A stretch of DNA of 64,000 nucleotides, from positions 301,151-365,150 of the forward strand of contig JAQGNY010000010.1 of NCBI GenBank assembly GCA_028293825.1. Direction: 5' to 3'. The DNA comes from Verrucomicrobiaceae bacterium. GTDB taxonomy: Bacteria > Pseudomonadota > Gammaproteobacteria > Pseudomonadales > CAMLJR01. The translations under genes and the position numbers were made by a program. The notes under the pieces were generated by a model. The model saw only the letters and a program-made list of their open reading frames with translations. It was not told the origin of the DNA and did not search any database. Of the stretch, positions 14,585 through 37,446 are shown one piece after another. Each line of letters starts with the position of its first letter. Within the stretch, counting starts at the first letter, position 1.

Positions 14585-14608
14585 TTTATTTTCTGTAATG
14601 CGCTAAAT

Positions 14609-14913: not shown

Positions 14914-15078
14914 TTAGAGGCGCGGCCTTCTTCCCATAAAGAACGAGACGATTAACGCGACAAGGAAGATAAGGAAAAGTACTTTCGCGATCCACGCCGC
15001 GCTGCCCGCAATACCACCAAAGCCGAGTACGGCTGCAATGATCGCGATGACAAGAAAGACTAATGTGTAGTGAAGCAT
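14914..15078 (-). CDS. DUF1328 family small membrane protein
   Basis: 54-residue protein with two hydrophobic segments ([21 protein letters not shown] and [20 protein letters not shown]) and a basic end GRRPRL, matching the DUF1328/YtjA family. AGGAGA six bases before the ATG at 15078 fixes the start; a longer frame to 15123 exists but has no ribosome site. YtjA-type proteins are found with other osmotic and envelope stress genes; function unknown. Confidence 0.88.
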
Positions 15079-15542
15079 GATATTTCTCCTGCCATACGGC
15101 GTTATTGAATTGGTTGGGTTCATCTTAATTTTGTTAACTATTTAATAGTAACCATTATTCGTGCCAAATAATTTTTCTTATTAAATCAGTGAATTAACTA
15201 ACGCTAAGATTAAATACTTAAAACGCTTACAAAAAAAGAACGAACTATTTACAGGATTAAAAAAAATAAGATAAAAGATAATTAATTTTTAACGCTCATC
15301 AAAGCTAAAAAATATCGAATATTTAAGAAAAAATTCGAGGAGTCGTTTAATGGATGGATCGAGAAGAATAACGCGCGATTACGACCGTCAGCGAATAGGA
15401 TAATCGAAGGTTAATGAAAGGTCTTAGATAAGAATTTACGCGAATAATTTAGAGGAACTAGATTGCCTACTTCGCTGTGGGAGTTAAACGAAATAGGCAA
15501 TTTAGGGTAGATCTATGTTTAGCGATTACTTATTACAGATAT
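15079..15542. other. AT-rich intergenic region with a stem-loop
   Basis: No gene is apparent in these 464 bases. A 13-base imperfect inverted repeat (15462-15474 with 15489-15501, one G-T pair) lies 3' of the DUF883 gene and may end its transcript. A -24-like TGGCACG is present on the minus strand at 15160-15166, but its -12 element is poor. Confidence 0.5.
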
Positions 15543-15884
15543 TTATTCGGCTTCTACAGTTTCGGTCGGACTGCGATCACGACCTCGGAACCAAATAGCA
15601 AATAAGGCTCCCACACTAACGGCTAAACTCAGTGCCGCAACAGGATGGCTTTGCAATACATTTTTTGCCGAGTCACCCGCCTGCAAGCTGCGAGTGCGTG
15701 CAGCGCGTAGCGAAACTTTCACAGCTTGTTCAGCGTCGTGTGCTGTCTTGCGTAACTTCTCTTCGGATACTTCCAGATGCTTAGCTGCCCGGTCGATAAG
15801 GTCGTGGGCTAAATGTACCGCTGCATCGGTGCCGGCATGTGCATTGTTAGTTGCTGTTCTCAGTAATCTCGTTTCTGCGTTCAT
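15543..15884 (-). CDS. DUF883 family protein (ElaB/YqjD-like)
   Basis: 113 residues: a long amphipathic helical N-terminal part (about 20-75, likely coiled coil) and a C-terminal membrane anchor (HPVAALSLAVSVGALFAIWF) followed by a charged end. ElaB/YqjD proteins are tail-anchored inner-membrane proteins made in stationary phase; YqjD of E. coli binds ribosomes. A second DUF883-like gene is at 61130. Upstream on the minus strand is an imperfect -24/-12 match. Confidence 0.86.
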   Translation of the reverse strand: MNAETRLLRTATNNAHAGTDAAVHLAHDLIDRAAKHLEVSEEKLRKTAHDAEQAVKVSLRAARTRSLQAGDSAKNVLQSHPVAALSLAVSVGALFAIWFRGRDRSPTETVEAE

Positions 15885-16497
15885 GTTATTACCTCACATT
15901 ATGATGGCGTGGCCGCGTAAATTCCTATTGGCGGTCCACGGTGTGTTTTCATATTTAGCGCTTTACCACGATAGTTGAATCAAAGATGGTGCCAACCCAG
16001 TTATGAGGAAAGGTGCGAGTAAAGAGTGCGATAGAAGACGTAGGTTTTCATCACGGAGGCATAACTCCTCAACCGCTTCAATTCAAAGGAACAATCCGTT
16101 TTGATGAGTTTCGATACTCTTTGCGAAATCAATTGATGATTTGAGGTTAACTGCATAAAAAATTGGTGCACGGGGTTTGGCGCTGCTATTAAACTGCCAA
16201 TTCCCTGGAAGATTATTCCGTCCGATTTTGTAATTTGTGCGTCCTGCAAAGAAGGACGAGCAGCGGTATCATCGATTAAAAAACAATAAGGGATTTTTTT
16301 GTAGAAGTTGGAAGGCTTTTTGCTGAGCAGGACGGATTCTGACAAAAGAAGAGTTAATTAAGTGTCAGTGCAATGCGTCGGCAGACCAGCGGAAGGTAGT
16401 ATTTCGTTTTGGGCAAAACGAGGCCCACGCCTGCAGAGTTCCTCTATCCATATTATCTTGTACATTTATTAAGCTTACAGAGCAGAGACTGTTGCCC
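15885..16497. other. Intergenic region before the large hybrid kinase
   Basis: About 600 bases without a supported gene. A minus-strand open frame at 16001-16345 has no recognisable domain. Two small signals are visible: a hairpin CGTTTT-GGGC-AAAACG near 16400, and the imperfect minus-strand -24/-12 match at 15979-15994. No convincing promoter of the kinase is seen. Confidence 0.4.
15979..15994 (-). promoter_or_regulatory. Weak sigma-54-like promoter of the DUF883 gene
   Basis: TGGCACCATCTTTGAT has a perfect -24 element, but the invariant GC of the -12 element reads GA. It is listed because it lies about 95 bases upstream of a gene of the same stress class as the other matches. Confidence 0.25.
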
Positions 16498-19400
16498 ATG
16501 AATTCCAATCAACAACCAATGGCAGCCAGCGTACTTACCGAGGCTCCGTTGTCCGTTAACGAAGAATCACGCAGTATCGATAAAGGTCGCTTTCAAGCGC
16601 TGCTCGCACGTCATGTCGCCGTTCCGTTGGCGTTTGGGTTGGTCAGCGTGTTGTTCTTTATCGTCATCGTCAATTATTTGCTTACGCTGGGGCGCTGGGT
16701 TGAAGCCACCGATAGAATTATCGGCTCCTCAAATTTATTACTGCAATTATTTATCGACCATGAAACGGGTTCGCGCGGTTTTGTCATTACCGGCAGGGAT
16801 GAATTTCTTGAACCTTATTTAAACGCGCAGCGACGCGTGCAGCCGCTGATCATGACGCTTAAACAACAGGTGGCCGATAACGAGCAGCAAAAGCAGCGCC
16901 TCGATAGCATGTACGACAATTATTTGCGTTGGCGCGAAGTAGCCGAGGCTGCGATTGATTTAAAGCGAACCGGCAAATCGCTGGATACGATAATCGCATC
17001 CGGTCGCGGCAAACGTCTGATGGATGAAATGCGACGGCAGTCTGGCGAATTTATCGCCGAAGAGGAAAGTATCAAGGCCGATCGCAATGAGAGTGCCCAC
17101 ACATGGGTGGTTGGATTGGCGAGCGGGTATTTCGCATTGAGCCTACTGTTCAGTGCGCTGATGGCCTACTGGGGTCGCAAACAATTATTGGAACTTGCCA
17201 CCACTTACGGCGGCCTATTGCAGCGGCAAGTGCTGCAAACCGATGTATTGCGGCAGCAGGCATGGTTGCGTTCCGGGCAAAGTCGCATGGCCGATAAAAT
17301 TATCGGGCAATTACCCTTGCCGATTCTCGGCCAGAACATTTTGACTTTTTTAGCCGAATATTTAGATGTAGCAGTCGGCGCTGTTTATATCAGCCCCGAC
17401 GAAAAAACATTTAATCGTATCGCTACTTACGGCTTCTCCAGAGAGATGGCCGATCTCGAGCAAACCTTTGAACCCGGTGAAAGTTTGTTGGGGCAGGTGG
17501 TGGAACAGCGTAGTCCGCTTTTTCTCGACGGCGTCGCCTCTTCTTATTTCAAGGTGAATTCAGGATTGGGTGAAGGCAACCCAGCTGCGGTTGCGATCTT
17601 GCCGGTGATTAGTGATAACACTATTAATGCCGTTTTAGAGTTGGGTTTTTTGCGCGCGATATCGCCGCGCGATATCGAATTTTTAAATTTGGTAAGCGAA
17701 AATATTGGCGCGGCTGTCGTGGCTGCCACTTACCGACGGCGCTTACACGAAACGTTGATCGATATGCAGCAATTGAACGACGAGTTACAGGCGCAGCAGG
17801 AAGAATTGCGCATTGCCAACGAAGAGTTGGAAGAACAATCGCAATCGCTGGAAGAGTCGCAAGCTCGTCTTGAGGCACAACAAACCGAATTGGAACAAAC
17901 CAATGTCGTGCTTGAAGAGCAGCATGAAGATTTACGCAACAACAATGAAACGCTGCAGCAGACGCAACAATTGCTCGAAGATCACGCGTCGCAGTTGGAA
18001 AAAGCGAGTCGTTATAAATCTGAGTTTCTCGCTAACATGTCGCATGAGCTGCGCACACCGCTGAACAGCTCACTGATTCTGTCTAAATTACTCGCTGATA
18101 ACAGCGCCGGCAATTTAACGCCGGAACAGGTTAAATTCGCCGAGTCAATTTATGCGGCGGGTAACGATCTGTTGGTGTTAATTAACGATGTGCTCGATAT
18201 TTCTAAAGTTGAAGCAGGCAAGCTCGAAGTTAAGCCCGATCAAATTGCGTTGCCGCGTATTCTCGAAGCATTGACGCAGAATTTCCGCACCCTGGCGCAA
18301 CAAAAGCATTTGGAATTCGAATTAATTGTCGATGCCGATGCACCAACCACGCTTTACGCCGACCGTCATCGGCTCGAACAAATCCTGCGTAATTTATTGT
18401 CGAATGCGATCAAGTTCACCGAGCGCGGCAGCGTATTGCTGCGTGTTTCGGCGCCAGCGCCGGAGCGAGTCTCGTTCGCTGTGATCGATACCGGCATCGG
18501 CGTTAATGCCAACCAGATCGGCCATATATTCGAACCGTTTTATCAGGCCGATAGCGCTACTAATCGTAAATACGGTGGCACCGGCTTAGGTTTGTCTATT
18601 TCGCGGCAGCTCGCCAGTTTGTTGGATGGCCATCTCACGGTGACTAGCGAGGTGGATGCCGGCAGTATTTTCACGCTGGATATTCCAGTGAGTTACCAGC
18701 GCAGCGAAACAGCCGCGCCAGCGGAAGCGATCGTTGAGCCGTCGCGGCCGGCAGTGATTGCACGTAAAGCGACGGCGACATTCGACGACGACCGCAATCG
18801 ACTCGTCGCCGATAAGAAAATTATTTTAATCGTCGAAGACGATCCCGCATTCGCACAGATTCTGTATGACCTGGCGCACGAATTAAATTATCAATGCCTG
18901 GTGGCCGCTTCAGCGGAAGACGGAATTGAGCTGACGCAACAGCACACGCCGCATGCAGTATTGCTCGATATGAAATTGCCCGATCAATCGGGTATGTCGG
19001 TGCTCGCGCGCTTTAAAGACGAGCCGCGTATTCGCCACGTACCAGTGCATATTATTTCGGTGGAAGATCGTACCGAAGCGGCGTTGCACATGGGCGCAGT
19101 CGGTTATTTGGTCAAGCCGGTTTCGCGCGATCAGCTGCGCGATATTTTTGTCTCGATTGAGGCGAAAATTGCGCAGAAAATGAAACACGTGTTGGTGGTG
19201 GAAGCCGCCGGCGAAAGCTCAGGCGCCACGGCGGCATTGATCGCCGATGTCGATGTTGAAGTGGTAACGGTAACCAGCGGCGAGCAAGCGCTGAATTTAC
19301 TGAAAGATAAAACCTTCGATTGTTTAATTGTCGATTTAATGCTGCCCGACATGGGCAGCGATGAACTGCTAAAAAAAATGTCGGCGACAGAAACGCTTTC

Positions 19401-19998
19401 ATTTCCGCCGGTAATCGTTCATGCGTCACGCAACTTGAGCCGCGAGGAAGAGGAAAAGCTACTGCGGTATTCGCGCTCCATCATTATTAAGGGCGCGCGT
19501 TCGCCAGAGCGGTTACTCGACGAAGTGACATTGTTTTTACATAAAGTAGAAGCCGATTTATCCGCCGAGCGCCGCAGCATGCTGCGGTTGGCGCGCAGTC
19601 GCGACCGCGCGTTGGAAGGGCGGAAAATTTTGGTTGTCGACGACGATGTGCGCAATATTTTTGCGATAACCAGTGCGCTCGAAAATAAAGGCGCCGTTAT
19701 TGAGATCGGTAGAAATGGCGTGGATGCACTCAGAAAGCTCGATGAAAGCGCCGACATTGATTTGGTGTTGATGGATATCATGATGCCGGAAATGGACGGC
19801 TATCAGGCGATGCAGGCAATCCGCAAAGACTCACGCTTTAGTAAGTTGCCGATTATTGCGGTGACGGCGCGTGCGATGCGTGACGATCAGGAGCGCTGTT
19901 TGCGCGCAGGCGCCAATGACTATGTCGCAAAGCCTGTCGATATGGATAGATTGATTTCATTGATTCGGGTTTGGCTGCCAAAAATTCAGCGTATTTAA
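16498..19998 (+). CDS. Hybrid sensor histidine kinase (CHASE3-GAF-HisKA-HATPase-REC-REC-REC)
   Basis: Membrane sensor kinase of 1166 residues. Order: transmembrane helix (about 40-60), periplasmic CHASE3 domain (DHETGSRGFVITG), second helix (about 200-220), GAF (about 275-405), a long Gln/Glu-rich coiled coil (about 415-505), HisKA with NMSHELRTPLNS (His about 516), HATPase, then three receivers starting near 772, 894 and 1041. Receiver 1 and 3 are complete (VEDD; VVDDD with phospho-Asp in LMDIMMP). Receiver 2 lacks the acidic pair (VVEAAGE) but keeps IVDLMLP. ATG 16498 is chosen over TTG 16492. It heads the signalling island; the next gene is cheR. Confidence 0.92.
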   Translation: MNSNQQPMAASVLTEAPLSVNEESRSIDKGRFQALLARHVAVPLAFGLVSVLFFIVIVNYLLTLGRWVEATDRIIGSSNLLLQLFIDHETGSRGFVITGRDEFLEPYLNAQRRVQPLIMTLKQQVADNEQQKQRLDSMYDNYLRWREVAEAAIDLKRTGKSLDTIIASGRGKRLMDEMRRQSGEFIAEEESIKADRNESAHTWVVGLASGYFALSLLFSALMAYWGRKQLLELATTYGGLLQRQVLQTDVLRQQAWLRSGQSRMADKIIGQLPLPILGQNILTFLAEYLDVAVGAVYISPDEKTFNRIATYGFSREMADLEQTFEPGESLLGQVVEQRSPLFLDGVASSYFKVNSGLGEGNPAAVAILPVISDNTINAVLELGFLRAISPRDIEFLNLVSENIGAAVVAATYRRRLHETLIDMQQLNDELQAQQEELRIANEELEEQSQSLEESQARLEAQQTELEQTNVVLEEQHEDLRNNNETLQQTQQLLEDHASQLEKASRYKSEFLANMSHELRTPLNSSLILSKLLADNSAGNLTPEQVKFAESIYAAGNDLLVLINDVLDISKVEAGKLEVKPDQIALPRILEALTQNFRTLAQQKHLEFELIVDADAPTTLYADRHRLEQILRNLLSNAIKFTERGSVLLRVSAPAPERVSFAVIDTGIGVNANQIGHIFEPFYQADSATNRKYGGTGLGLSISRQLASLLDGHLTVTSEVDAGSIFTLDIPVSYQRSETAAPAEAIVEPSRPAVIARKATATFDDDRNRLVADKKIILIVEDDPAFAQILYDLAHELNYQCLVAASAEDGIELTQQHTPHAVLLDMKLPDQSGMSVLARFKDEPRIRHVPVHIISVEDRTEAALHMGAVGYLVKPVSRDQLRDIFVSIEAKIAQKMKHVLVVEAAGESSGATAALIADVDVEVVTVTSGEQALNLLKDKTFDCLIVDLMLPDMGSDELLKKMSATETLSFPPVIVHASRNLSREEEEKLLRYSRSIIIKGARSPERLLDEVTLFLHKVEADLSAERRSMLRLARSRDRALEGRKILVVDDDVRNIFAITSALENKGAVIEIGRNGVDALRKLDESADIDLVLMDIMMPEMDGYQAMQAIRKDSRFSKLPIIAVTARAMRDDQERCLRAGANDYVAKPVDMDRLISLIRVWLPKIQRI

Positions 19999-20033
19999 AG
20001 TTCACTGCATTGATTTAAAGCCCTAACGTTTAG

Positions 20034-20963
20034 ATGCCAAAGAGTTTTTCTATGAACCAAGCGCTTTCTGTGGATACCGCGGATATCGTTGAATCCGATA
20101 GGGACAGTGAATTGCCAGCACTGCTGGAAGATATCTATCAACACTACAACCATGATTTTAGACAATATGCTGCAGCCTCTTTAACGCGACGAATAAATTG
20201 GGCGCTGCGCAAATTGAAAATGGCGGATATTGCGCAGCTGCGCGATTACATCGTGCAGGCGCCGCAAAATTTTTCCACACTGCTGCAATACATAACGGTA
20301 CCGGTTAGCGCGATGTTTCGCGATCCCGCGTATTTTTTGGCCCTGCGTCAACATGTGGTGCCGGTGTTGAAAACCTATTCATCGCCGAAGATTTGGGTGG
20401 CGGGATGTTGCACCGGCGAAGAGGCTTATTCGATCGCAATTGTGCTGCGAGAGGAAGGTTTGCTGGAGCGCTCGGTGATTTATGCCACCGATATTAATCC
20501 GGCGGCACTGGAGCAGGCCGCGCGCGGAATTTTTCGCAACGATCAAATTCGCGCATACACGGAAAATTATCAGCGCGCCGGCGGTAAGACGGCTTTTTCC
20601 GATTATTACCATGCGGCGTACGATAACGCGGTGCTCGATAAAGAATTGCGGAAAAATATTATTTTCGCCGAACACAGTTTGACGACCGATAGTGTATTTT
20701 CCGAAATGCAATTGATTTCGTGCCGGAATGTGTTGATTTATTTCAAGCGCGAATTGCAAAGCGCGACCTTCGATTTGTTTCATGAATCATTGTGTCGGCG
20801 CGGCTTTCTCGGCTTGGGTGCACGCGAGACGTTGGATTTTTCGCCGCGCGCGCATCAATTTGATAACTGCGTAAAATCGCTGCGGATTTATCAAAAAAAT
20901 AACGAATCTTTAATTGTAAATCCCGTCGAAGGGTTAAGACGGTTCCAGCCCGCGCGCAATTAA
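20034..20963 (+). CDS. CheR-type protein-glutamate methyltransferase
   Basis: SAM-dependent methyltransferase of the CheR family: N-terminal helical domain (about 28-95), then the SAM-binding fold with WVAGCCTGEEAYSIAI, the acidic YATDIN segment and the late motif LISCRNVLIYF. There are no chemoreceptor, CheA, CheW or CheB genes in the window. Similar gene clusters usually pair CheR with CheB next to a hybrid kinase; here only CheR is present, 35 bases from the kinase before it and 35 bases from the one after it. Confidence 0.92.
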   Translation: MPKSFSMNQALSVDTADIVESDRDSELPALLEDIYQHYNHDFRQYAAASLTRRINWALRKLKMADIAQLRDYIVQAPQNFSTLLQYITVPVSAMFRDPAYFLALRQHVVPVLKTYSSPKIWVAGCCTGEEAYSIAIVLREEGLLERSVIYATDINPAALEQAARGIFRNDQIRAYTENYQRAGGKTAFSDYYHAAYDNAVLDKELRKNIIFAEHSLTTDSVFSEMQLISCRNVLIYFKRELQSATFDLFHESLCRRGFLGLGARETLDFSPRAHQFDNCVKSLRIYQKNNESLIVNPVEGLRRFQPARN

Positions 20964-20998
20964 GACGGGTCAACGCAGTCCAGATTGGAAGAGCCTAT

Positions 20999-22228
20999 AT
21001 GGAACAATTACCCGAAGTGGTCGATCAGCCCATCGTTAAAGTTTTGCTGGTTGACGATATTCTCGAAAATTTGCTGGCGTTGGAAGCGTTGCTCAAGCAG
21101 CCGGGTCTGCAAGTGTTGACGGTTACATCCGCTACGCAAGCTCTCGAATTATTGCTCGATCACGATTTCGCAGTCGCGTTAATCGACGTGCAAATGCCGG
21201 AAATAAATGGCTTCGAGTTGGCGGAAATGATGCGCTCGACCGAACGCACGCGCCATATTCCGATTGTGTTCGTCACCGCCGGTAGCGTTGAGCCCAGCTA
21301 TGCCTTCAAAGGTTATGAATCCGGTGCCATCGATTTTTTATACAAGCCGCTTGATAACCACACGGTAAAAAGTAAGGTAAATATTTTTATCGAAATTTAT
21401 CGGCAGCGGTTAGCGGTAAATCAGCAGGTTGTCGCGTTGCGCCAGGCGCACCAAGAACAACAGCGACTGCTCGATCAATTACAGCAGACGCAAACCGATT
21501 TACAGAAAGCGATGCGGTTGCGCGACGAGTTTATGTCGGTGGTTTCGCATGAACTGCGCACGCCGCTGAATACGCTTAAGTTGGAGTTGTATACGCGCAG
21601 ACTGCATTTGGAAAATGGCGACGACGATGCGTTTACATTCGAGAAAATCGAAAATATGGTGGCCAGCGACGAGCGCCAGTTGAATCGGTTGATTCGCCTC
21701 ATTAACGACATGACCGACGTCGCCCGCATTCGTACCGGCCAGCTGTCAATGCGTCCGGCCACAACGGATCTGGTCACGCTGACCAAACGTGTTGCCGATC
21801 AATTCGCGGCGCAAGTCGAAATGGCCGGTAGTGCCCTGCATCTGCAAAATACTGGTGCGGTGATCAATGCGTATATCGATGAATTTCGTATCGAGCAGGC
21901 AGTTATTAATTTGCTGACTAATGCCATCCGTTACAGCGCGCATAAACCGATCGAGATTTCGGTCGATGAAGTGGGCGATAAAGTGCGCATCGGTATTCGC
22001 GATTACGGTAAGGGTATTCCGGACGATGACCAACGCCGTATTTTTCAACAATTCGAACGCGGCTCGAACGAGCGTAAAGGCAGCGGTCTCGGCCTGGGCT
22101 TATTTATCGCTCATCAAATTGTCACTGCACATGGCGGCACTTTGGCTGTAGCAAGTAAGCTCGACGAAGGCTCGCTATTTACGTTGGAACTGCCTAAAAA
22201 GTATGCGTTCGACCTCGACGACGAGTAA
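20999..22228 (+). CDS. Response regulator-histidine kinase (REC-HisKA-HATPase)
   Basis: Cytoplasmic protein of 409 residues. Receiver domain (about 14-130) with VDD pocket, phospho-Asp in ALIDVQMPE and Lys in FLYKPL; a short Gln-rich coiled coil; HisKA with VVSHELRTPLNT (His near 184); HATPase with N-box NLLTNAIRYS, G1 DYGKG and G2 GSGLGLGLF. The receiver-first order suggests that the kinase output is set by phosphorylation from the upstream hybrid kinase. Same strand and close spacing suggest one operon with it and cheR. Confidence 0.9.
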   Translation: MEQLPEVVDQPIVKVLLVDDILENLLALEALLKQPGLQVLTVTSATQALELLLDHDFAVALIDVQMPEINGFELAEMMRSTERTRHIPIVFVTAGSVEPSYAFKGYESGAIDFLYKPLDNHTVKSKVNIFIEIYRQRLAVNQQVVALRQAHQEQQRLLDQLQQTQTDLQKAMRLRDEFMSVVSHELRTPLNTLKLELYTRRLHLENGDDDAFTFEKIENMVASDERQLNRLIRLINDMTDVARIRTGQLSMRPATTDLVTLTKRVADQFAAQVEMAGSALHLQNTGAVINAYIDEFRIEQAVINLLTNAIRYSAHKPIEISVDEVGDKVRIGIRDYGKGIPDDDQRRIFQQFERGSNERKGSGLGLGLFIAHQIVTAHGGTLAVASKLDEGSLFTLELPKKYAFDLDDE

Positions 22229-22406
22229 TCATCGGTTTTTGGTTGACTGTTTTTTACCTCTGCAATTTTGTAAAAACTCGCAAACGATTTGTAAGTTTTT
22301 CTCGCTCGCGCACTTTTCTGCATTTTTTTGCCGCTAACTTTGCCACCAAGGGCGCATGGCTGCGATTGATATGCAGGTTAGCGGCGATTGCGCTCGATCC
22401 AATTTA

Positions 22407-22422
22407 TGGAATGCGGATTGCA
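22407..22422 (+). promoter_or_regulatory. Candidate sigma-54 promoter of the stressosome genes
   Basis: TGGAATGCGGATTGCA has TGG and TTGCA with the exact spacing, only position 4-6 of the -24 element differing. It lies 56 bases before rsbR. Confidence 0.45.
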
Positions 22423-22477
22423 ATCGTCCCACTTTTTGCACGCTTTCACTTAATGCCCTAAAGAGGAATACGCACCG

Positions 22478-23335
22478 ATGAGCCAGCCTAGCTCGAATAT
22501 TTTGGCCGACGTTATCAATAAGTATGAAGCCGAATTAACCAACGATTGGAAGCGGACGCTAACGCAGGTTTCGGTTGGCACTGGTCTGGAATCCGAATTA
22601 GCACAATTGTGCACACAGTTTTTACCGCTGTTCTCGCGCGCAGTGCAGCGCGCTGCTCAGGAAAATATCAACAGCACGGAATGGGATGAGGCGCGCAATT
22701 TATTGGCGGAGTTTTCGCGATTGCGCGCGCGGCAGGGTTTTACGCCGACGCAAACTGCCATGTTTATCTTCTCGTTAAAGCAGCCGTTGTTTTCGTTGTT
22801 CCGTCGGGAGTTTGCCACGCAGCCAGCCGAGTTGGCCGATGCCACTTGGCTTAGCAATACGCTGCTTGATCAACTCGGATTATTTACGGTTGAGGTTTTT
22901 CAGCAGAGTCGCGATCAGATTATTTCGCGTCAGCAGCAAGAGCTGCTTGAGCTTTCAACGCCGGTGGTAAAGCTGTGGCAAAACATTCTGGCGCTGCCAT
23001 TGATCGGCACGTTGGACAGTTCGCGCACGCAGGTTGTTATGGAAAGCCTGCTGCAAAAAATTATCGAAACCGGCGCTGCGATAGCGATTATCGACATCAC
23101 CGGCGTACCGACAGTGGACACGTTGGTTGCACAGCATTTATTAAAAACGGTTGCCGCAGCGCGCTTGATGGGCGCGGATTGCATCATCAGCGGTATTCGT
23201 CCGCAGATCGCGCAGACCATCGTGCATCTGGGCGTTGATCTTGAGGATGTCATTACCAAGGCGACGCTGGCCGATGCATTTGTGGTGGCGTTGCAACGCA
23301 CGGGCGCAACACTTTCACCTACGTTGAAGGCGTGA
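22478..23335 (+). CDS. rsbR: Stressosome scaffold/sensor protein RsbR-like
   Basis: 285 residues: an N-terminal sensory helical domain (about 8-150) and a C-terminal STAS domain (about 165-275). STAS motifs match RsbR closely: LPLIGTLDSSR, DITGVPTVDTLVA and GIRPQIAQTIVHLG. The RsbT phosphorylation site equivalent to Thr205 is present (Thr215), while the one equivalent to Thr171 is Ser181. RsbR and RsbS co-assemble into the stressosome, which holds and releases RsbT. It is the first gene of the rsbR-S-T set; AGAGGA before the ATG supports the start. Confidence 0.93.
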   Translation: MSQPSSNILADVINKYEAELTNDWKRTLTQVSVGTGLESELAQLCTQFLPLFSRAVQRAAQENINSTEWDEARNLLAEFSRLRARQGFTPTQTAMFIFSLKQPLFSLFRREFATQPAELADATWLSNTLLDQLGLFTVEVFQQSRDQIISRQQQELLELSTPVVKLWQNILALPLIGTLDSSRTQVVMESLLQKIIETGAAIAIIDITGVPTVDTLVAQHLLKTVAAARLMGADCIISGIRPQIAQTIVHLGVDLEDVITKATLADAFVVALQRTGATLSPTLKA

Positions 23336-23342
23336 GGCGATC

Positions 23343-23702
23343 ATGGAAAAGATCCCTATTCTACGAATAGGCAAAGTGTTGTTGGTGACGATTCAGGTGG
23401 ACATGCACGATCGTCTCGCGCTGGCGCTGCAGGAAGATTTATCGGAGCGTATCGTGCGCGACGAAGCGAACGGCGTAATTATCGATATTTCTGCACTCGA
23501 TATTGTCGATTCGTTTATCGGCCGTGTGTTGAGCAATACCGCTGCGGTAGCGCGGATTCTCGACGCCGAAACGATTGTCGTCGGTATGCAGCCGGCCGTG
23601 GCTATTACATTAGTGGAGTTGGGCTTGAATTTAACCGGTGTAAAAACCGCGTTAAATGTTGAGCTGGGCATGGCGATGCTGTCACGGCGTTTACGTTCTT
23701 GA
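23343..23702 (+). CDS. rsbS: Stressosome STAS protein RsbS
   Basis: 119-residue single STAS domain. The RsbT target serine is in DISALDIVDSFIG (Ser57, matching Ser59 of Bacillus RsbS), followed by GRVLSNTAAVARI and MQPAVAITLVELG. It starts seven bases after rsbR, so the two are cotranscribed and probably made in a fixed ratio for stressosome assembly. Confidence 0.95.
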   Translation: MEKIPILRIGKVLLVTIQVDMHDRLALALQEDLSERIVRDEANGVIIDISALDIVDSFIGRVLSNTAAVARILDAETIVVGMQPAVAITLVELGLNLTGVKTALNVELGMAMLSRRLRS

Positions 23703-23871
23703 GCGGCGCGTGCTTCGAGGTTTTTCGCAAGAACACGTTTTTCAAAATCAATGTCGCTGCTAAGAAGCACCGTGTCAGCGGTGGCGTTGTTTGCGGCAAA
23801 GAGGCTACGGACGTAATTGTTTGCGGTGCAATTATCTGCGAGGACATTTATCTACGTAGACGGAGCGACGC

Positions 23872-24288
23872 ATGACGAGCGATGTACAAATTCCTTCGGC
23901 GATGCCGCTTTATACAGATGACGATGTAGTGCGCGTGCGCGCTCAGGTTCGGCAGTTCGCGGTTGAAATCGGTTTGAGTCTGGTCGATCAAACAAAGGTA
24001 GTTACTGCGGCCAGTGAATTGGCGCGCAATACATTGCGGCATGCCGGCGGTGGCGAGGCGAGACTTCAAATTTTACAGCGCGAAAATATGCGCGGTTTGC
24101 ATTTGGCATTTTCCGATCGCGGTCCCGGCATTGCCGATATAGGGTTGGCGATGACCGATGGTTACACCAGCGGCGGCGGGCTGGGTTTAGGTTTAGGCGG
24201 AGCAAAACGTTTGGTGGATGAGTTTGAACTCACCACTGAGGTCGGCAAGGGCACCACGGTGGTAATCATTAAATGGAAACGTTTTTAA
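23872..24288 (+). CDS. rsbT: Switch protein kinase RsbT
   Basis: 138-residue GHKL ATPase of the anti-sigma/RsbT type that phosphorylates RsbR and RsbS and is then released. N-box AASELARNTLRHAGGG, G1 DRGPGI and glycine-rich GGGLGLGLGGAKRL are all intact. In Bacillus free RsbT activates RsbU; no rsbU, rsbV, rsbW or sigB exists in this window. The gene is separated from rsbS by 169 bases that hold nothing recognisable, and overlaps the next gene by 16 bases. Confidence 0.93.
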   Translation: MTSDVQIPSAMPLYTDDDVVRVRAQVRQFAVEIGLSLVDQTKVVTAASELARNTLRHAGGGEARLQILQRENMRGLHLAFSDRGPGIADIGLAMTDGYTSGGGLGLGLGGAKRLVDEFELTTEVGKGTTVVIIKWKRF

Positions 24289-25379
24289 CCGCGAAGCCGC
24301 AATTAACATTCGCGCCGCAAAATAATTTTATTGTCGAGGAAATTACCGGTGTCGCACCGGTGCGTCGTTACGCTTTGCAAATGGCGGGGTGGCTTGGTTT
24401 TAATGAAGTCGATGCGGGACGTGTCGGTATTATCGTGTCCGAGTTAGCGACCAACATCGTCAAGCACGCGGGTCGCGGCGAATTGTTATTGCGCTGGGTA
24501 CGTGACGGCGGCGACGGTTTGGAAATTCTGGCACTCGACCGCGGTCCCGGCATCGCCAATTTAGAAGCGAGTTTTCGCGATGGTGTTTCCACTGCCGGCA
24601 CGGCAGGTAGCGGGCTCGGCGCCATTCAACGCATGGCCGATGATTTTCAGGTGTTTACGCAGCCCGATAAAGGCTCAGTGTTTTACGTGAAAATAAATGC
24701 CGCGACAAAACCGAAAATTAATTCTTCAGCGACTACAAACGCTAGCGACGTAACGGCCACTTCGGCGCCAACATCTGGCGCCAATGCGTTGCAAACCGGG
24801 CCACTGCAAATCGGCGCGATTTGTATACCCAAGCCGCCGGAAGAAGCGTGTGGCGATGCCTGGTACATTGATGCGCGCGGCGATACCGTTTTGGTGGGTG
24901 TTGCCGATGGCTTGGGTCACGGTCCGGATGCAGCCACAGCGTCGCGCGCGGCGCTTAACGCGCTTGCTGGCGAAGCTTCATTGGCGCCAGGGCGCTTGAT
25001 TGAGGTGGCGCATCAGCGCGCGCGCGCAACCCGTGGCGCGGCGGTTTCATTTGCAGCGCTCCAACCTGCGCTGAATCAAATTAAATACGCCGGTGTCGGC
25101 AATATTGCGGCTAGCGTGTGCAGCGAAAATACGCGCCAGCAATTGATTTCACACAATGGCATCGTTGGCCACAACATGCGCAAGGTGCAGGAATTTACTC
25201 TTGATTGGCCGCCCACAGCTGCAATCGTTCTGCATTCGGATGGAATTTCGACGCAGTGGGATTTGCGGCTTTATCCGGGTCTTTTGACACGTCATCCGGC
25301 GTTAATTGCAGCGGTAATTTATCGCGATTTTTGCCGCAAAACCGATGACGCCACGGTTGTTGTAATCAAGCGTCAGTGA
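24273..25379 (+). CDS. RsbT-like ATPase fused to a SpoIIE/RsbX-type PP2C phosphatase
   Basis: 368 residues. The first part (about 15-140) is an RsbT/RsbW-like GHKL domain (VSELATNIVKHAGRGEL, DRGPGI, GSGLGAIQRM). A Ser/Thr/Ala linker (about 145-175) leads to an RsbX/SpoIIE-type PP2C domain with the metal-binding segments CGDAW, VADGLGHG and KTDDATVVVI. RsbX resets the stressosome by dephosphorylating RsbR and RsbS, so this fusion probably does that while its ATPase domain adds a second partner contact. The ATG lies inside the end of rsbT, suggesting translational coupling. Confidence 0.9.
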   Translation: METFLTAKPQLTFAPQNNFIVEEITGVAPVRRYALQMAGWLGFNEVDAGRVGIIVSELATNIVKHAGRGELLLRWVRDGGDGLEILALDRGPGIANLEASFRDGVSTAGTAGSGLGAIQRMADDFQVFTQPDKGSVFYVKINAATKPKINSSATTNASDVTATSAPTSGANALQTGPLQIGAICIPKPPEEACGDAWYIDARGDTVLVGVADGLGHGPDAATASRAALNALAGEASLAPGRLIEVAHQRARATRGAAVSFAALQPALNQIKYAGVGNIAASVCSENTRQQLISHNGIVGHNMRKVQEFTLDWPPTAAIVLHSDGISTQWDLRLYPGLLTRHPALIAAVIYRDFCRKTDDATVVVIKRQ

Positions 25380-25446
25380 TTAAGCACAATTAGTGAAACA
25401 CAAAAAATTAAGCGCTCTAGATTAAAAGCACAATGAGTTTTAGCCA

Positions 25447-27225
25447 ATGAGCAGCGGTCTCCAAACTTCGCGATTATTGAAAATACATTTGCACAGCGAG
25501 CTCGATGTGGTCGCAGCGCGGCAACGCGCCCGTCATATCGCCGAATTGCTCGGCTTCAATAATCTGGATCAGGTGCGTATCGCCACTGCCGTTTCGGAAA
25601 TGGCGCGCAACGCATTTCGTTACGCAAGCGATGGCCGCGTCGAGTTTTCACTGGAAACACAGCCGCAATCCACATTGAAAATTGTCATTACCGATCGCGG
25701 CAACGGCATCGACAATTTGCAAGACATTCTAGACGGCAGATACAGCTCAAAAACTGGCATGGGTATGGGCATCGTCGGCACCATGCGATTAATGGATGTT
25801 TGCGATATCGATAGCAAGCCCGGGCAGGGCGTCACGATTACGCTGAAAAAAAATATGCCGACGGCGCTGAGCTTATTTAATAAAGCGCAGCTTGCCGATA
25901 TCGCGGGTGAGTTGACGTCGGAACTTACCGTCGATGCATTCGCGGAAATTCAACGGCAAAATCAAGAGTTGATGCAGGCATTGGCGGATCTGCGCGGACG
26001 CCAAGAAGAATTATTAAATTTAACGCGCGAATTGGAAGACACCAATCGCGGCGTGGTCGCGTTGTATGCGGAAGTCGATGAGAAAGCCAGTCACCTGCGT
26101 CGCGCGGATCAGATGAAATCGCGCTTTCTATCGAATATGAGCCATGAATTTCGTACACCGCTCGGCTCGATTCGCGCGCTGTCGCAATTACTGCTTGACC
26201 GTATCGATGGCGAGTTGGGCGAGGAGCAGGAAAAGCAGGTCAACTTCATCAAGAAAGCGGCGGAAGATTTATCCGAGCTGGTTAACGATCTACTCGATCT
26301 CGCCAAAATCGAAGCCGGCAAAGTCGAAATTAAACCAACCGCGTTTTCCGTTGTGGAATTGATGAGCGCATTGCGCGGAATGTTGCGTCCTTTGTTAATC
26401 AGTGACAGCGTCGATTTAAGTTTCGACGTGGCGCCGCAGATTGGCGACATCGTTGCGGACGAAGGCAAGGTTTCGCAAATCTTACGTAACTTCATCTCTA
26501 ATGCGTTGAAATTTACCAAGCGCGGCAGTATTCGGGTCACTGCTATTTACGAGAGCGCCAGCAATACCGTGCGTTTTTCCGTTTCCGATAGTGGCATCGG
26601 GATTGCTACTGATGATCTGCAGTTAATTTTCGAAGAATTCAGTCAGATCGAAAATCCGATGCAAAGCCGTGTGAAAGGCACGGGTTTAGGTTTGCCGCTA
26701 TGCCGTCAGCTCGCGAACTTAATTGGTGGTGTGGTCGAAGTAAAAAGTGTCCTTGGCGAAGGATCGACATTTACGTTGGCGATTCCTTATCAGCCGGTGA
26801 TGTCAGATAGCGGTGTCAAAGCCGTTGCAGTGGCGGAATCCGAAGACATTTCGCTTCGCGGCAGCGTGCCAGTGTTAGTGATCGAAGATCACGCGCCTAC
26901 GCGCCTGCTGTATGAAAAATATTTGCAGAATACGCAGTACCGCGTATTCAGTGCCAACAATGTAATTGAGGCCCAAATGTTGTGGCAGCACATGCGGCCG
27001 AGCGCGGTGGTCCTCGACATCATGTTGGACGGTAAAGAGGCTTGGCCTTGGCTTGAAGGCTTAAAAAATAATGTCGACACCCGCGATATTCCGGTCGTTG
27101 TCGTGAGCGAACTAGCGGAGCAGCACCGCGGCTTGGCATTGGGTGCCGATCGTTATTACATGAAGCCATTGCTGCGAGAAGATTTAATAAATGCGTTAGA
27201 TCAGTTGGTACGTGCGCCGGCATAA
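25447..27225 (+). CDS. RsbT-like ATPase fused to histidine kinase and receiver
   Basis: 592 residues with an unusual order: an RsbT-like GHKL domain first (about 12-135: SEMARNAFRYASDG, DRGNGI, TGMGMGIVGT), a coiled coil (about 160-225), HisKA with NMSHEFRTPLGS, a second, kinase-type HATPase (NFISNALKFTKRG, DSGIG, GTGLGLPLC) and a C-terminal receiver (VIEDHA, VVLDIMLD, YYMKP). There are no membrane segments. It is the likely link from the stressosome to phosphorelay signalling: RsbT-type release at one end, His-Asp transfer at the other (inference). Confidence 0.9.
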   Translation: MSSGLQTSRLLKIHLHSELDVVAARQRARHIAELLGFNNLDQVRIATAVSEMARNAFRYASDGRVEFSLETQPQSTLKIVITDRGNGIDNLQDILDGRYSSKTGMGMGIVGTMRLMDVCDIDSKPGQGVTITLKKNMPTALSLFNKAQLADIAGELTSELTVDAFAEIQRQNQELMQALADLRGRQEELLNLTRELEDTNRGVVALYAEVDEKASHLRRADQMKSRFLSNMSHEFRTPLGSIRALSQLLLDRIDGELGEEQEKQVNFIKKAAEDLSELVNDLLDLAKIEAGKVEIKPTAFSVVELMSALRGMLRPLLISDSVDLSFDVAPQIGDIVADEGKVSQILRNFISNALKFTKRGSIRVTAIYESASNTVRFSVSDSGIGIATDDLQLIFEEFSQIENPMQSRVKGTGLGLPLCRQLANLIGGVVEVKSVLGEGSTFTLAIPYQPVMSDSGVKAVAVAESEDISLRGSVPVLVIEDHAPTRLLYEKYLQNTQYRVFSANNVIEAQMLWQHMRPSAVVLDIMLDGKEAWPWLEGLKNNVDTRDIPVVVVSELAEQHRGLALGADRYYMKPLLREDLINALDQLVRAPA

Positions 27226-27250
27226 TTCGGCGCGCATGAGGAGTTTCAAA

Positions 27251-27328
27251 ATGAAGATTGCCGCTACTAATTATTCCTGTTCTGTATCGCAGACGGGCGG
27301 CGATGTACGTTCGGTCATTGCCCAATGA
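27251..27328 (+). CDS. Possible 25-residue leader peptide or small protein
   Basis: ATG at 27251 preceded by GAGGAG (27238-27243) at ideal spacing, then 25 codons and a TGA that overlaps the ATG of the next kinase as ATGA. The peptide MKIAATNYSCSVSQ... matches nothing I know. The good ribosome site and stop-start overlap suggest translational coupling to the PAS hybrid kinase, which has no ribosome site of its own. Confidence 0.5.
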   Translation: MKIAATNYSCSVSQTGGDVRSVIAQ

Positions 27329-29250
27329 CTGTTGAAGTCGCGGAAAAATCTACCTCGCTTATTTTGAATGTCGACGATAACGAAGGTGCTCGTTATGCTA
27401 AATCGCGGACGCTTAAATTAGCCGGCTTTGAAGTGCTCGAAGCATCTACCGGTGCCGACGCATTAGAGATCGTGCAGCGGCGCATGCCCGATTTAGTATT
27501 GTTGGATATGAAGCTACCGGATATCAGCGGCCTTGAAGTGTGCCGGCGCATTAAGCAAGATCCCAATACATCTTCGGTGATGGTGCTGCAAACTTCCGCG
27601 TCGTTAATCGACAGCGGCGATCGTGTGCGTGGCCTCGATGAAGGCGCCGATAATTATTTAGCGGCTCCGGTTGAGCCCATCGAATTAATCGCGAATGTAA
27701 ATGCATTATTGCGTCTGCGGGAAGCGCAACGCGCGTTGTATGACAACGAAGAACGCTTTCGGCAAATGGCGGAAAATATCGGTGACGTGTTTTGGATTTT
27801 CGATCCGCAACGTTTACAGATGTTATACGTCAGCCCTGCGTATGAAAAAATTTGGGGACGCACGTCCGAACGGCTGTATAAAAATTTCTATGCGTGGCAA
27901 GAAAGCGTACATCCGGAAGATCGCGAACGTGTCAGTATCGCGTTTGCCGATTTGTTGAAATATCAGGATTACGAGCAGGAATACCGATTGTTAATGCCGG
28001 ATGGCTCCGAGCGCTGGATTCGCGATCGTGGCTTTCCGGTACGCAATGCAGCCGGTAATAATTATCGGATTACGCGTATTTCGCAGGATATCTCCGCGCC
28101 GAAAACGGCCGATCACGCATTGCGGGAAGCAGCAATTCGCAAGGATGAATTTTTAGCAACGCTCGCGCACGAACTGCGCAACCCCTTGGCGCCGATGCGC
28201 ACGGCTATCGATTTAATGCGCATTGCCGATATTGGCCAAGTTGTCACCGGCAGCACCGAGATCAACGCGCGGGAAATTATGTCGCGCCAAATTGACCACT
28301 TGGTACGTCTAGTGGACGACCTGCTCGATGTATCGCGCATTACGCAGGGAAAATTACTGCTGCAAAAAGGTTTCATAGAGCTACGTCCGATTGTGGATGC
28401 CGCACTCGAAACCAATGAAACTTTTTTACGCCTGCGTAAGCACCGGCTCACGGTGAATATGCCGACCGAAAAAATTTGGCTGAACGGCGACAGCGTGCGT
28501 TTGGCGCAGGTGGTCAGCAATCTAATTCACAACGCGGCGAAATACACGCCTGAGGGTGGCGATATTACATTGAATATCGTTACCGCTGGCAATCACCTAC
28601 AGATTATGGTTAGCGATAATGGTATCGGCGTGTCGCGTGAACATATCGGGCGCATCTTCGAATTATTTACGCAGGCGCAACGTTTGGAAAGCAAGGCACC
28701 GGAAGGTCTTGGCGTTGGTTTGTCGTTGGTAAAACGTCTCGTGGAATTACACGGCGGCACCATCCAGGCCGAAAGTCCTGGGCCTGGAAAAGGCAGCACA
28801 TTTACTATCGATTTGCCGATTAATCCGAAATTACCGATTACAGAGAAGACGAAGCCAGCGCGAAAAAAGCCCACGCATAAAAATGCCCTGCGCATTTTGT
28901 TGGTCGATGACAGTGTTGACGCCGTGAATCTATTGAAGCTTCTGTTGGAAAGTATGGGCCATCAAATTGAAGTGGCCAATGAAGGAAAAACAGCACTAAT
29001 CCTCGCTGCCAAGTTAGTGCCGCATGTTGTCTTGTTGGATATTGGCTTGCCGGGAAAGGATGGATACGAAGTTGCGCGCGAACTTAAGCAGATGCCGGAA
29101 TTGCAGCAGACAATTTTGATTGCGTTAACGGGGTACGGTCAGGAAAAAGATCGGGAGCAAGCTTTTTCCAGCGGGTTTTCGTATCACTTTATTAAGCCGC
29201 TTGATATCGATGAGCTAATTAAAGTACTCACGGATATCAGTCCATTCTGA
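27325..29250 (+). CDS. Hybrid histidine kinase (REC-PAS-HisKA-HATPase-REC)
   Basis: 641 residues, cytoplasmic. N-terminal receiver (about 12-130) with VDDNE and phospho-Asp in VLLDMKLPD, but the usual Lys-Pro at its end reads YLAAPV, so the conserved Lys is Ala. PAS domain about 140-265 (VFWIFDPQRL, WIRDRGFPVR), HisKA with LAHELRNPLAPM, HATPase (NLIHNAAKYTPEGG, DNGIG, GLGVGLSL), and a second, complete receiver (VDDSVD, VLLDIGLPG, FIKPL). It is the last gene of the signalling island and is coupled to a tiny open frame upstream. Confidence 0.9.
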   Translation: MTVEVAEKSTSLILNVDDNEGARYAKSRTLKLAGFEVLEASTGADALEIVQRRMPDLVLLDMKLPDISGLEVCRRIKQDPNTSSVMVLQTSASLIDSGDRVRGLDEGADNYLAAPVEPIELIANVNALLRLREAQRALYDNEERFRQMAENIGDVFWIFDPQRLQMLYVSPAYEKIWGRTSERLYKNFYAWQESVHPEDRERVSIAFADLLKYQDYEQEYRLLMPDGSERWIRDRGFPVRNAAGNNYRITRISQDISAPKTADHALREAAIRKDEFLATLAHELRNPLAPMRTAIDLMRIADIGQVVTGSTEINAREIMSRQIDHLVRLVDDLLDVSRITQGKLLLQKGFIELRPIVDAALETNETFLRLRKHRLTVNMPTEKIWLNGDSVRLAQVVSNLIHNAAKYTPEGGDITLNIVTAGNHLQIMVSDNGIGVSREHIGRIFELFTQAQRLESKAPEGLGVGLSLVKRLVELHGGTIQAESPGPGKGSTFTIDLPINPKLPITEKTKPARKKPTHKNALRILLVDDSVDAVNLLKLLLESMGHQIEVANEGKTALILAAKLVPHVVLLDIGLPGKDGYEVARELKQMPELQQTILIALTGYGQEKDREQAFSSGFSYHFIKPLDIDELIKVLTDISPF

Positions 29251-29392
29251 ATTCAACAAAGCTTATTATTGATTTCTTCTTATAAACCGAGCGAGTCGTC
29301 CCTGACTCTCTTTTCTCTTCTGTCTTTCGTCTCTTGTTTATCTAATTCTTTATATCTTTAACTTTAATTGTTGAGATTAACTTTTAAAGCGC

Positions 29393-30013
29393 TTAACGCG
29401 ACGCTTTTTTGTCGCCGGTTTCCGTCAATGCATGCGCATGTTTTTGATGTGCGCGCAATGTCGGCAACGACTGATTAGCGAACACGCGCAACTCCGCGTT
29501 CAGCGTGGGCTCACCGGCCGCGTTATCAAATAGTGCTACCGTAGTGTCGTGATCTTTTTTCATAAGGTCCACATAGCTTTGATCGAATTGTGGCTCGGAT
29601 AAACCCTGCAACTCATCGATAAGTTTTTTATGTGCAGCATCGGTTTTGGTAGGGATATCGAGACGGTTAGTGGTGGCGATTTGTTTAAGCTTAGCGCCGG
29701 CTGCCTCGTGATCTTTCACCATTTGCGCGGCAAATTTCTTAATTTTTACGTTAGTCGATTTGGTTGCAGCCAGTTTTGAAATTTCAATTTCTGCCAGCGA
29801 TCCGGCGGCAGCTTTCTCAACGAAAGTGCTATCAGTCAATTTTTCTTTAACTGTGCTGTCTTGCGGCAAAGTTTGTGTCAATGTTTTTTGCGCAGGCGCG
29901 GTGGGCGCTGATTGAGCTACTGCTATTCCTGCAGCGGTCAGAGTGCTCAGTGCCAGCACAACTGAAAGATTCACCAATACACGCGGCGTTTTCCGAAAGT
30001 TTTTAGTTTTCAT
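29393..30013 (-). CDS. DUF4142 family exported protein
   Basis: 206 residues with a signal peptide (VLVNLSVVLALSTLTAAGIAVAQS). The mature part is a DUF4142 helical bundle of ferritin-like type: FVEKAAAGSLAEIEISKLAA, FAAQMVKDHEAAGAKL, DQSYVDLMKKDH and LRAHQKHAHAL. These periplasmic proteins are common beside stress genes; the role is unknown. CAGGAGCATCACT before the ATG supports the start, and a 6-base hairpin (30036-30053) sits just upstream of that ribosome site. Confidence 0.9.
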   Translation of the reverse strand: MKTKNFRKTPRVLVNLSVVLALSTLTAAGIAVAQSAPTAPAQKTLTQTLPQDSTVKEKLTDSTFVEKAAAGSLAEIEISKLAATKSTNVKIKKFAAQMVKDHEAAGAKLKQIATTNRLDIPTKTDAAHKKLIDELQGLSEPQFDQSYVDLMKKDHDTTVALFDNAAGEPTLNAELRVFANQSLPTLRAHQKHAHALTETGDKKASR

Positions 30014-30035
30014 AGTGATGCTCCTGCTGTGTTGT

Positions 30036-30053
30036 AACCTACATAAATAGGTT
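30036..30053 (-). other. Hairpin next to the DUF4142 ribosome site
   Basis: AACCTA (30036-30041) and TAGGTT (30048-30053) pair perfectly with a 6-base loop, about 15 bases upstream of the ribosome site of the DUF4142 gene. Confidence 0.45.
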
Positions 30054-30159
30054 TTTAAAAGTCATTTATAAATAAAAAGATTTATAAATTTATGAGTCGC
30101 TTAAGAATATCTGCTGCGTTTGGTTGTCAATCATGAACCACGGCAGATGCTTTGACTAA

Positions 30160-30175
30160 AGCAATTGATATGCCT
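30160..30175 (-). promoter_or_regulatory. Sigma-54 (-24/-12) promoter of the DUF4142 gene
   Basis: On the minus strand AGGCATATCAATTGCT; only the first base departs from TGGCAY, and GG and GC have the exact spacing. The sequence is nearly the same as the glgC promoter. It lies 147 bases upstream of the DUF4142 start. Confidence 0.58.
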
Positions 30176-30205
30176 ATTAATTAAATTCGATAAATTAATT
30201 AATAG
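30174..30205. repeat. AT-rich inverted repeat
   Basis: CTATTAATTAA (30174-30184) and TTAATTAATAG (30195-30205) form an 11-base perfect inverted repeat between the end of treY and the DUF4142 promoter. It could end treY transcription or be an operator; there is no T run. Confidence 0.45.
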
Positions 30206-30214
30206 ACCTGAGAT

Positions 30215-37409: not shown

Positions 37410-37446
37410 TGATACATCCACAACAATTAAGAGTGTGTGAATGAAA

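Follow-up and report, generated by a model that had tools for sequence, protein, structure and literature searches.

How does a stressosome pass on its signal in a bacterium that has no recognisable SigB cascade? This question is raised by a locus in a 64,000-nucleotide stretch (hereafter the window) of contig JAQGNY010000010.1 (assembly GCA_028293825.1, positions 301,151 to 365,150), in which a first-pass annotation, made from the letters alone, had recognised RsbR, RsbS, RsbT and an RsbX-like phosphatase. The annotation had found none of the Bacillus output partners RsbU, RsbV, RsbW and SigB in the window, and had placed the set among histidine kinases and under a candidate sigma-54 promoter. 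Our analysis confirms its observation and supports its interpretation in part. The more interesting part, which it missed, is a histidine kinase in the slot after RsbX whose N-terminus is itself an RsbT-like domain.

In the known mechanism, RsbT is held by the stressosome shell, phosphorylates RsbS and RsbR, and is then released (PMC9237108; here and below, papers are cited from the parts of their text available to us). RsbU_N is the docking site for RsbT, which activates RsbU by ordering its linker (PMC12143880). Modules of rsbRSTX without sigB are widely conserved in many phyla, and their outputs are phosphatases, cyclic di-GMP (c-di-GMP) enzymes or HisKA/REC phosphorelays (PMC9237108). A sigB-free stressosome with a two-component output is also known (PMC9237108; PMC10014275), and that of Moorella thermoacetica has an RsbU_N-GGDEF output (Quin 2012, as cited in PMC4976288 and PMC12143880). 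The remark in the first-pass annotation that stressosomes with other outputs exist, for example in Vibrio, agrees with these reports (PMC9237108). A stressosome without SigB is not novel. For RsbT-like domains fused to RsbX and to the putative output kinase, we found no description in the open literature searched (text without figures; the reviews Pane-Farre 2005 and 2017 were outside its scope).

A histidine kinase with an RsbT-like domain follows RsbX

The four genes recognised at 22478-25379 are present, although the unit that starts with RsbR extends further, to 29250, and includes two kinase genes, T-HK and D2 (Table 1). All genes lie on one strand, separated by 7, 169, -16, 67 and 99 bases. 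The unit contains three RsbT-like ATPase domains, namely RsbT, the N-terminus of the RsbX gene (T-X) and the N-terminus of T-HK. The first-pass annotation had rightly spoken of RsbT-like domains in the plural, without mentioning that one of them is fused to a kinase, as Pfam reveals. Its RsbX-like phosphatase does have a phosphatase domain with a metal site, in a gene that proves to be a fusion with an N-terminal RsbT-like domain.

Table 1. Genes of the conserved unit, followed by the upstream features that were considered
Feature	Position	Strand	Description	Evidence
RsbR	22478..23335	+	RsbRD_N (globin-like) sensor and STAS; phosphosites T215, S181	Pfam, PDB sequence matches, AlphaFold2 and Foldseek, 19-row alignment
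RsbS	23343..23702	+	STAS scaffold; phosphosite S57	Pfam, PDB sequence match
RsbT	23872..24288	+	stand-alone GHKL serine/threonine kinase	Pfam HATPase_c_2 (2e-11)
T-X	24273..25379	+	RsbT-like domain (~1-150) and RsbX PP2C phosphatase (~178-365)	Pfam HATPase_c_2 and SpoIIE
T-HK	25447..27225	+	RsbT-like domain (~1-137), predicted helix 164-250, HisKA (H233), HATPase, receiver; putative direct output kinase	Pfam, alignments, AlphaFold2, conserved order, domain tree
D2	27325..29250	+	hybrid kinase (REC-PAS-HisKA-HATPase-REC) that closes the conserved unit	Pfam, order in relatives
Sigma-54 site	22407..22422	+	candidate -24/-12 site, not supported	motif count against shuffles, relatives
Upstream trio	16492..22228	+	CHASE3-GAF hybrid kinase, CheR, REC-kinase; neighbour outside the module	Pfam, relatives

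According to Pfam, the N-terminus of T-HK is HATPase_c_2 and not RsbU_N, and the gene shows the layout that defines this variant, i.e. an RsbT-like domain, a helix and a histidine kinase in the slot after RsbX. In the AlphaFold2 (AF2) model of T-HK (14 rows; mean predicted local distance difference test score, pLDDT, 78.5; predicted template modelling score, pTM, 0.39), an alpha/beta domain reaching to about residue 136 and a short helix (146-158) are followed by a single helix (164-250) containing the phosphoacceptor H233. GacS (7z8n) aligns to the model over residues 161-451 (Z 21.1, root-mean-square deviation 4.1, 276 aligned); the structural-neighbour comparison mainly covered residues 226-592, and the absence of SpoIIAB-type rows from it carries no weight. 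Pfam finds no sensor domain in T-HK besides the RsbT-like domain, and no DNA-binding domain anywhere in the unit. D2 is the probable next phosphate acceptor after T-HK.

To see what occupies the slot elsewhere, RsbU_N was sought in the 47 genomes with an RsbT-like match (38 of the phylum sample and nine more of the class sample, both described below), and ten have it. It starts the gene directly after RsbX in seven of the ten (G314, G169, G225, G812, G391, G381 and G623); six of these genes are kinases and one is a GGDEF gene whose RsbU_N score of 25.7 is barely over the cut-off of 25.5. The slot after RsbX holds an RsbU_N-kinase in the loci L153, L154, L156, L158, L161 and L162. The RsbU_N gene of G766 and that of G568 come after an RsbT-like gene without an intervening RsbX, and in the third remaining genome, G402, its position is unassigned.

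In the fused-kinase genomes examined, it is an RsbT-like domain that opens this slot, and RsbU_N is found in none of the eleven such genomes (G000, the window's own, and G061, G093, G452, G597, G600, G625, G633, G769, G829 and G860). Compared with 10/36 among the others, this gives a two-sided Fisher p of 0.088 with kinship ignored, where eight of the 38 genomes of the phylum sample (G568, G571, G585, G590, G608, G612, G630 and G803) count as unfused solely on their profile coverage. We take this difference as suggestive only. Because RsbU_N and the RsbT-like domain are swapped in the same slot, we read the fused domain as a coupling element, and this swap is the main ground for doing so.

Conservation of the fusion and history of its domains

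A comparison of gene neighbourhoods in relatives, which the first-pass annotation had proposed, was made on the loci that an alignment of the T-HK N-terminus (three rows) matched among 84,980 species, each represented by a single genome. Of the 23 loci, 21 have the order R, S, T, T-X, T-HK, D2 (with R beyond the contig end in L053); in the remaining two, from Armatimonadetes (L072) and Obscuribacterales (L073), kinase-like genes follow the X of a plain RSTX set. Each of the 21 fused loci has a stand-alone RsbT, and in each a D2-like gene with receiver and kinase matches comes after T-HK. Nine of these loci belong to Oxalobacteraceae/Methylophilaceae and twelve to Pseudomonas/Stutzerimonas. As to the statement that the set lies among histidine kinases, the two downstream kinases are indeed part of the module (21/21 fused loci), but the trio upstream is independent of it, as described below.

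A scan with a single profile favours close relatives of the query, and a class and a phylum sample were used to offset this bias. In the even class sample (369 genomes), the RsbS profile (E <= 1e-20) matched nine genomes and the T-HK N-terminal profile (E <= 1e-15) ten, nine being common to both; two of them (G000 and G452) have the full-length fusion. In the phylum sample (398 genomes), the T-HK profile matched 38 genomes, nine of them, including the window's, at full length and a tenth (G600) over residues 6-181. The neighbourhoods of these ten each have a T-HK-profile kinase after T-X.

Of the 38 genomes, 29 yielded new loci in the phylum search (L114-L142), whose layouts were tallied by eye: 19 have the T-X fusion, two have separate second T and X genes (L125, L131), six have one T and an unfused X (L122, L130, L134, L137, L141, L142), one has RsbR and the fused kinase only (L121), and one has an RsbT-like gene adjoining a kinase (L140). 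The T-fused kinase is visible in nine of the 29 (L114-L121 and L124). In G600 (L150:6419-7618; also L124), the gene that follows T-X joins the RsbT-like domain to a HisKA_2/HWE-type kinase, and therefore the fusion is not tied to a single kinase class.

Other arrangements were seen in the same searches. G769 has, apart from its main set (L149), an RsbR-like gene (RsbRD_N and STAS) divergent from a full-length T-HK (L148:6021-8518); no RsbS, RsbT or RsbX lies within the 14 kb read, and the genome has RsbT elsewhere (L149). L128 and L133 are R-S-[T-X] sets with no separate RsbT in the stretch examined, and their fused T-X protein may be kinase and phosphatase in one. In L131/L151, L080 and L125, a second RsbT-like gene and RsbX are adjacent but unfused, possibly the state that preceded the T-X fusion. 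In G543 (L152:6767-8923), the gene next to a T-X fusion set encodes PAS-GGDEF-EAL, pointing to a c-di-GMP output.

The three domain types separate in a tree of 71 RsbT-like domains, which is unrooted, is built from few columns, has a bootstrap that is not fully settled and carries long-branch warnings. RsbT (T), the N-terminus of T-X (TXn) and that of T-HK (THKn) form three groups of 23 domains, each on one side of a branch with support of 99/98, 100/100 and 100/98, respectively. Since each group includes both Pseudomonas and Burkholderiales members, the triplication predates the split of the two versions. The ATP-site residues E51, N55, D83, G85, G87, G106 and G108 are kept in 23/23 domains of each type, and the same holds for R25, which aligns with R20 of SpoIIAB, a residue that touches the STAS partner there. 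T and THKn have the SE(x)ARN...Y and RL signatures in common, in full or nearly; TXn has partly drifted from the RsbT signatures, with R54 in 11/23.

The core stressosome genes

Judged by sequence, the window locus is an RsbR-RsbS-RsbT-RsbX stressosome gene set of known kind: RsbR has a STAS domain with a phosphothreonine, RsbS a phosphoserine, RsbT an ATP site and RsbX a metal site. Pfam, PDB matches and alignments uphold the four assignments of the first-pass annotation together with T215, S57 and the ATPase motifs. Among solved structures, RsbR matches its counterparts from the stressosomes of V. vulnificus (7o0i, 1.5e-36), its top PDB sequence match, spanning 129-280, and of Listeria (7b0u, 7.6e-32). 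In the Listeria protein, T215 pairs with the T of GVPVVDT; D214-T215 is invariant in 19/19 aligned rows. S181 corresponds to the T of GTIDTER in Listeria RsbR and to S at the same place in V. vulnificus RsbR.

The AF2 model of RsbR (mean pLDDT 81.3, pTM 0.56) has a Listeria stressosome chain as its first Foldseek match (9.3e-12), and the predicted fold of its helical N domain weakly resembles the globin sensors 3zta and 5ohf (E 0.018 each). Haem globin sensing relies on a proximal histidine. Residues 1-149 of the window copy contain no histidine, and the same is seen in seven further rows of the 19-row alignment, in which some rows are trimmed at the start. With RsbRD_N assigned by Pfam and an N domain without histidine, haem sensing by this RsbR was rejected.

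RsbS matches B. subtilis RsbS (6jhk, 2.2e-29), and its identity to two Pseudomonas-order copies is 67% each; S57, within VDSFI, is present in 3/3 aligned rows and pairs with the B. subtilis serine. A gap of 169 bases separates rsbS from rsbT (23703-23871); in L046 and L047, the two relatives with listed start codons, these genes can overlap. RsbT distantly resembles SpoIIAB (5.7e-5, PDB sequence match). The RsbX domain best matches the SpoIIE-type phosphatase 3zt9 (1.1e-13), which we take to be the Moorella stressosome phosphatase, and also matches B. subtilis RsbX (3w40, 4.5e-9); its metal-site motifs GD, DG, SDG and DD are intact in 21/21 aligned rows.

The set shares the RsbR/S/T/X homologues and the phosphosites with the SigB stressosome of Bacillus subtilis; in contrast to that system, no RsbU_N, stand-alone RsbW-like or SigB-class gene was found in the window's genome. 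It is like the Moorella thermoacetica system in having a non-SigB output, and the best match of its RsbX domain is presumably the phosphatase of that organism, but the output there is an RsbU_N diguanylate cyclase and here a fused histidine kinase. With rsbRSTX and VvD1-VvD2 of Vibrio vulnificus it has in common the RSTX order, the lack of SigB and RsbU/V/W, and downstream two-component genes (PMC9237108; PMC10014275). However, Vibrio RsbR binds haem, whereas the window RsbR has RsbRD_N without histidine in the N domain; the RsbX of the Vibrio survey is a single-domain phosphatase, whereas that of the window carries an RsbT-like domain; and the available text of PMC9237108 names no RsbT-like kinase fusion, whereas the window has one. 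The RsbU_N-histidine kinases of proteobacterial stressosome operons are alike in that the kinase follows RsbX and has an RsbT-linked N-terminal domain (PMC9237108; PMC12143880), but theirs carries the docking site for RsbT, and that of the window an RsbT-like domain in a genome without an RsbU_N match.

Search for a SigB cascade in the genome

The window's genome (4.34 Mb, 56 contigs, 96% complete) was searched as a whole with profiles, and RsbU_N gave no match. No SigB-class sigma factor is over the cut-off of the SigBFG model; there are six weaker matches, and four of these fall in frames of 649, 345, 251 and 289 amino acids, which by their length we take to be RpoD, RpoS, FliA and RpoH. HATPase_c_2 is over its cut-off at six places in the genome, i.e. 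the three RsbT-like domains of the unit, the kinase at 20999-22228, a phosphatase-ATPase at 7 kb of contig C55 and a 425-amino-acid frame on C39, and no stand-alone RsbW is among them. The absence of RsbU, RsbV, RsbW and SigB that the first-pass annotation had reported for the window extends, as far as tested, to the genome.

SpoIIE matches occur at six places, one of which is this operon, and two adjoin STAS genes (C55:7 kb and C28:60 kb). At C55:6.8-8.8 kb (L051), a gene with receiver-like, SpoIIE and HATPase regions stands with a STAS gene near chemotaxis-like genes; at C28:59-61 kb (L052), a gene with a receiver-like N-terminus and SpoIIE has a STAS gene alongside. These pairs look like other partner-switching systems, presumably HsbR/HsbA-like and RssB/RssC-like, names that we give from architecture alone, and the whole-genome search placed RsbU_N in neither. 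A complete RsbU-V-W-sigma set elsewhere in the genome, which the first-pass annotation had named as the finding that would speak against it, was looked for and not found, with RsbU_N and SigBFG at zero over cut-off and the C55 and C28 pairs devoid of RsbU_N. As far as tested, the bacterium has no recognisable SigB cascade.

Proposed mechanism and alternatives

With modest confidence, we lean towards a Gram-negative stressosome module of distinct architecture, in which domain fusion replaces the usual adaptor step and T-HK docks on the RsbR/RsbS shell, to be released by phosphorylation. This is supported because the gene order is kept, the ATP-site residues and R25 are kept, helix 164-250 runs into the phosphoacceptor, RsbU_N and the RsbT-like domain are swapped in one slot, a HisKA_2 fusion exists in L150, and an RsbR-like gene is paired with T-HK in L148. 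The gene order and its conservation, the homology, the conserved sites and the absence of RsbU_N and SigB matches are observations; how the kinase docks and is freed, which way control runs and what the output finally is are inferred. RsbR and RsbS would build a STAS shell, which three RsbT-like GHKL domains would recognise: RsbT, the tether of RsbX and the N-terminus of T-HK. At rest, T-HK would be kept on the shell via its own RsbT-like domain, and T-X likewise. Upon stress, RsbT would phosphorylate S57 of RsbS and T215 and S181 of RsbR, and the RsbT-like domains would lose their hold. The freed T-HK may then rearrange via its long helix, phosphorylate H233 and pass the phosphate to its own receiver and to D2, and the tethered RsbX would reset the shell.

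More tentatively, and with some doubt on our part, RsbT, T-X and T-HK may all use paralogous RsbT-like domains to dock on a single STAS shell, where these domains would compete for common sites. The phosphorelay would then be switched directly, with no diffusing messenger or RsbU-type adaptor; the arrangement would have arisen by swapping RsbU_N for a docked partner and would be built on at least two kinase classes (HisKA and HisKA_2).

Several points speak against docking of T-HK on the shell. The T domain could instead serve dimerisation or kinase feedback. According to the available text of PMC9237108, no reproducible binding of V. vulnificus VvRsbT was observed, whether to VvD1 or to VvRsbR and VvRsbS individually. 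The absence of RsbU_N from the fused-kinase genomes is statistically not firm (p 0.088, with related genomes), and in 26/47 RsbT-bearing genomes RsbU_N is missing and no fusion was recognised either, so that coupling can work by some third route. The pTM of 0.39 leaves the relative placement of the T-HK domains undefined by the model, and in the kinase of the main set of G769 (L149), the T domain is recognisable in its second half only.

Among the alternatives, the one that survives best, though we regard it as unlikely, is that the RsbT-like domain of T-HK binds RsbT freed from the shell rather than the shell, and that free RsbT activates the kinase as it does RsbU. SpoIIAB-type GHKL proteins dimerise, GHKL anti-sigma factors pairing with themselves, which would provide for such a pairing. 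The stand-alone RsbT of all 21 fused loci, superfluous for output if the kinase docks itself, seems to argue in the same direction; it is needed anyway, however, to phosphorylate RsbS and RsbR, and its retention does not discriminate. RsbT orders the coiled-coil linker of RsbU (PMC12143880), and a long helix is predicted after the T domain here, but the extra kinase of L148 adjoins an RsbR-like gene, and the 14 kb around it contain no RsbT (RsbT being elsewhere in that genome, in L149); moreover, the RsbT-like domain of the kinase retains the arginine that aligns with R20 of SpoIIAB.

It is quite improbable that RsbT transiently phosphorylates the downstream kinase, the fused domain being an inherited extra with no docking role. 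Such coupling has been proposed for V. vulnificus, which showed no RsbU_N downstream (PMC9237108), but the fused domain keeps the ATP site and most RsbT signature residues across Pseudomonas/Burkholderiales (the listed ones in 23/23), which is unexpected of an idle domain. We give equally little credence to a fused domain that acts as serine/threonine kinase for RsbS/RsbR, with the histidine kinase feeding back on the shell and sensing its input elsewhere: E51 and N55 are kept in 23/23 and no further sensor domain of the hybrid kinase is recognised by Pfam, but without another recognised sensor the T domain is the likeliest input, and its N-terminal place before the signalling helix is the usual site of an input domain, occupied elsewhere by RsbU_N.

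Promoter, neighbouring genes and origin of the module

The candidate sigma-54 promoter is not supported. The site has two mismatches, and sites of this quality number 21 in the window and 14.3 ± 4.05 when it is shuffled, with 8/100 shuffles reaching 21. In its favour, within the 420 bases before RsbR alone the site scores 10 of 12, which is reached in 2.7% of simple shuffles (p 0.027), and 10 of 12 is also found in three of 20 relatives (L063, L069 and L070; shuffle p 0.027, 0.010 and 0.010). Their sites lie 328, 269 and 406 bases from RsbR, rough distances counted from the start of the tblastn match and not from a verified start codon, versus 71 in the window. The best sites of the 20 relatives have no common distance before RsbR.

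The upstream trio was considered as part of the module and rejected: the same-genus genome G001 has the trio (48%, 54% and 49% amino-acid identity for the three genes), then genes unlike the module, and CheR has no match in the examined stretches of 23 relative loci. A DNA search of G001 with 14500-34400 gave nothing over RsbR-to-T-HK and two short matches (79 and 56 bases) in the D2 region, and a protein search of this 89% complete genome gave no match to T-X. Because G001 shares the trio without a match over RsbR-to-T-HK, gain or loss of the module inside the genus is probable. G001 has the trio and the TreY/TreZ-like genes on two contigs, so that no single uninterrupted empty site is seen. 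In the window, the module is followed on the minus strand (29393-37421) by a DUF4142-like protein and trehalose-synthesis genes, named from reading only; TreY/TreZ-like relatives occur in G001 without the module.

In a module tree, which is unrooted, leaves out L053 (no RsbR) and includes one row without TXn, the window, flagged as a long branch, groups with eight Burkholderiales/Methylophilaceae rows, apart from twelve Pseudomonas/Stutzerimonas rows. The window's genome belongs to the same order as Pseudomonas despite this placement. Horizontal transfer of the module appears likely from this tree.

Implications

For the Gram-negative stressosome of Vibrio, direct contact between RsbT and the output kinase could not be shown (PMC9237108). 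The natural fusion of an RsbT-like domain to a kinase makes this contact testable with one protein, and predicts that the kinase itself binds the shell. The fusion is also a ready-made construct for the effect of RsbT release on a histidine kinase. In Massilia, Herbaspirillum, Methylophilus and Pseudomonas, the proposed mechanism would give a role to the ATPase-phosphatase and ATPase-kinase fusion genes that neighbour STAS genes.

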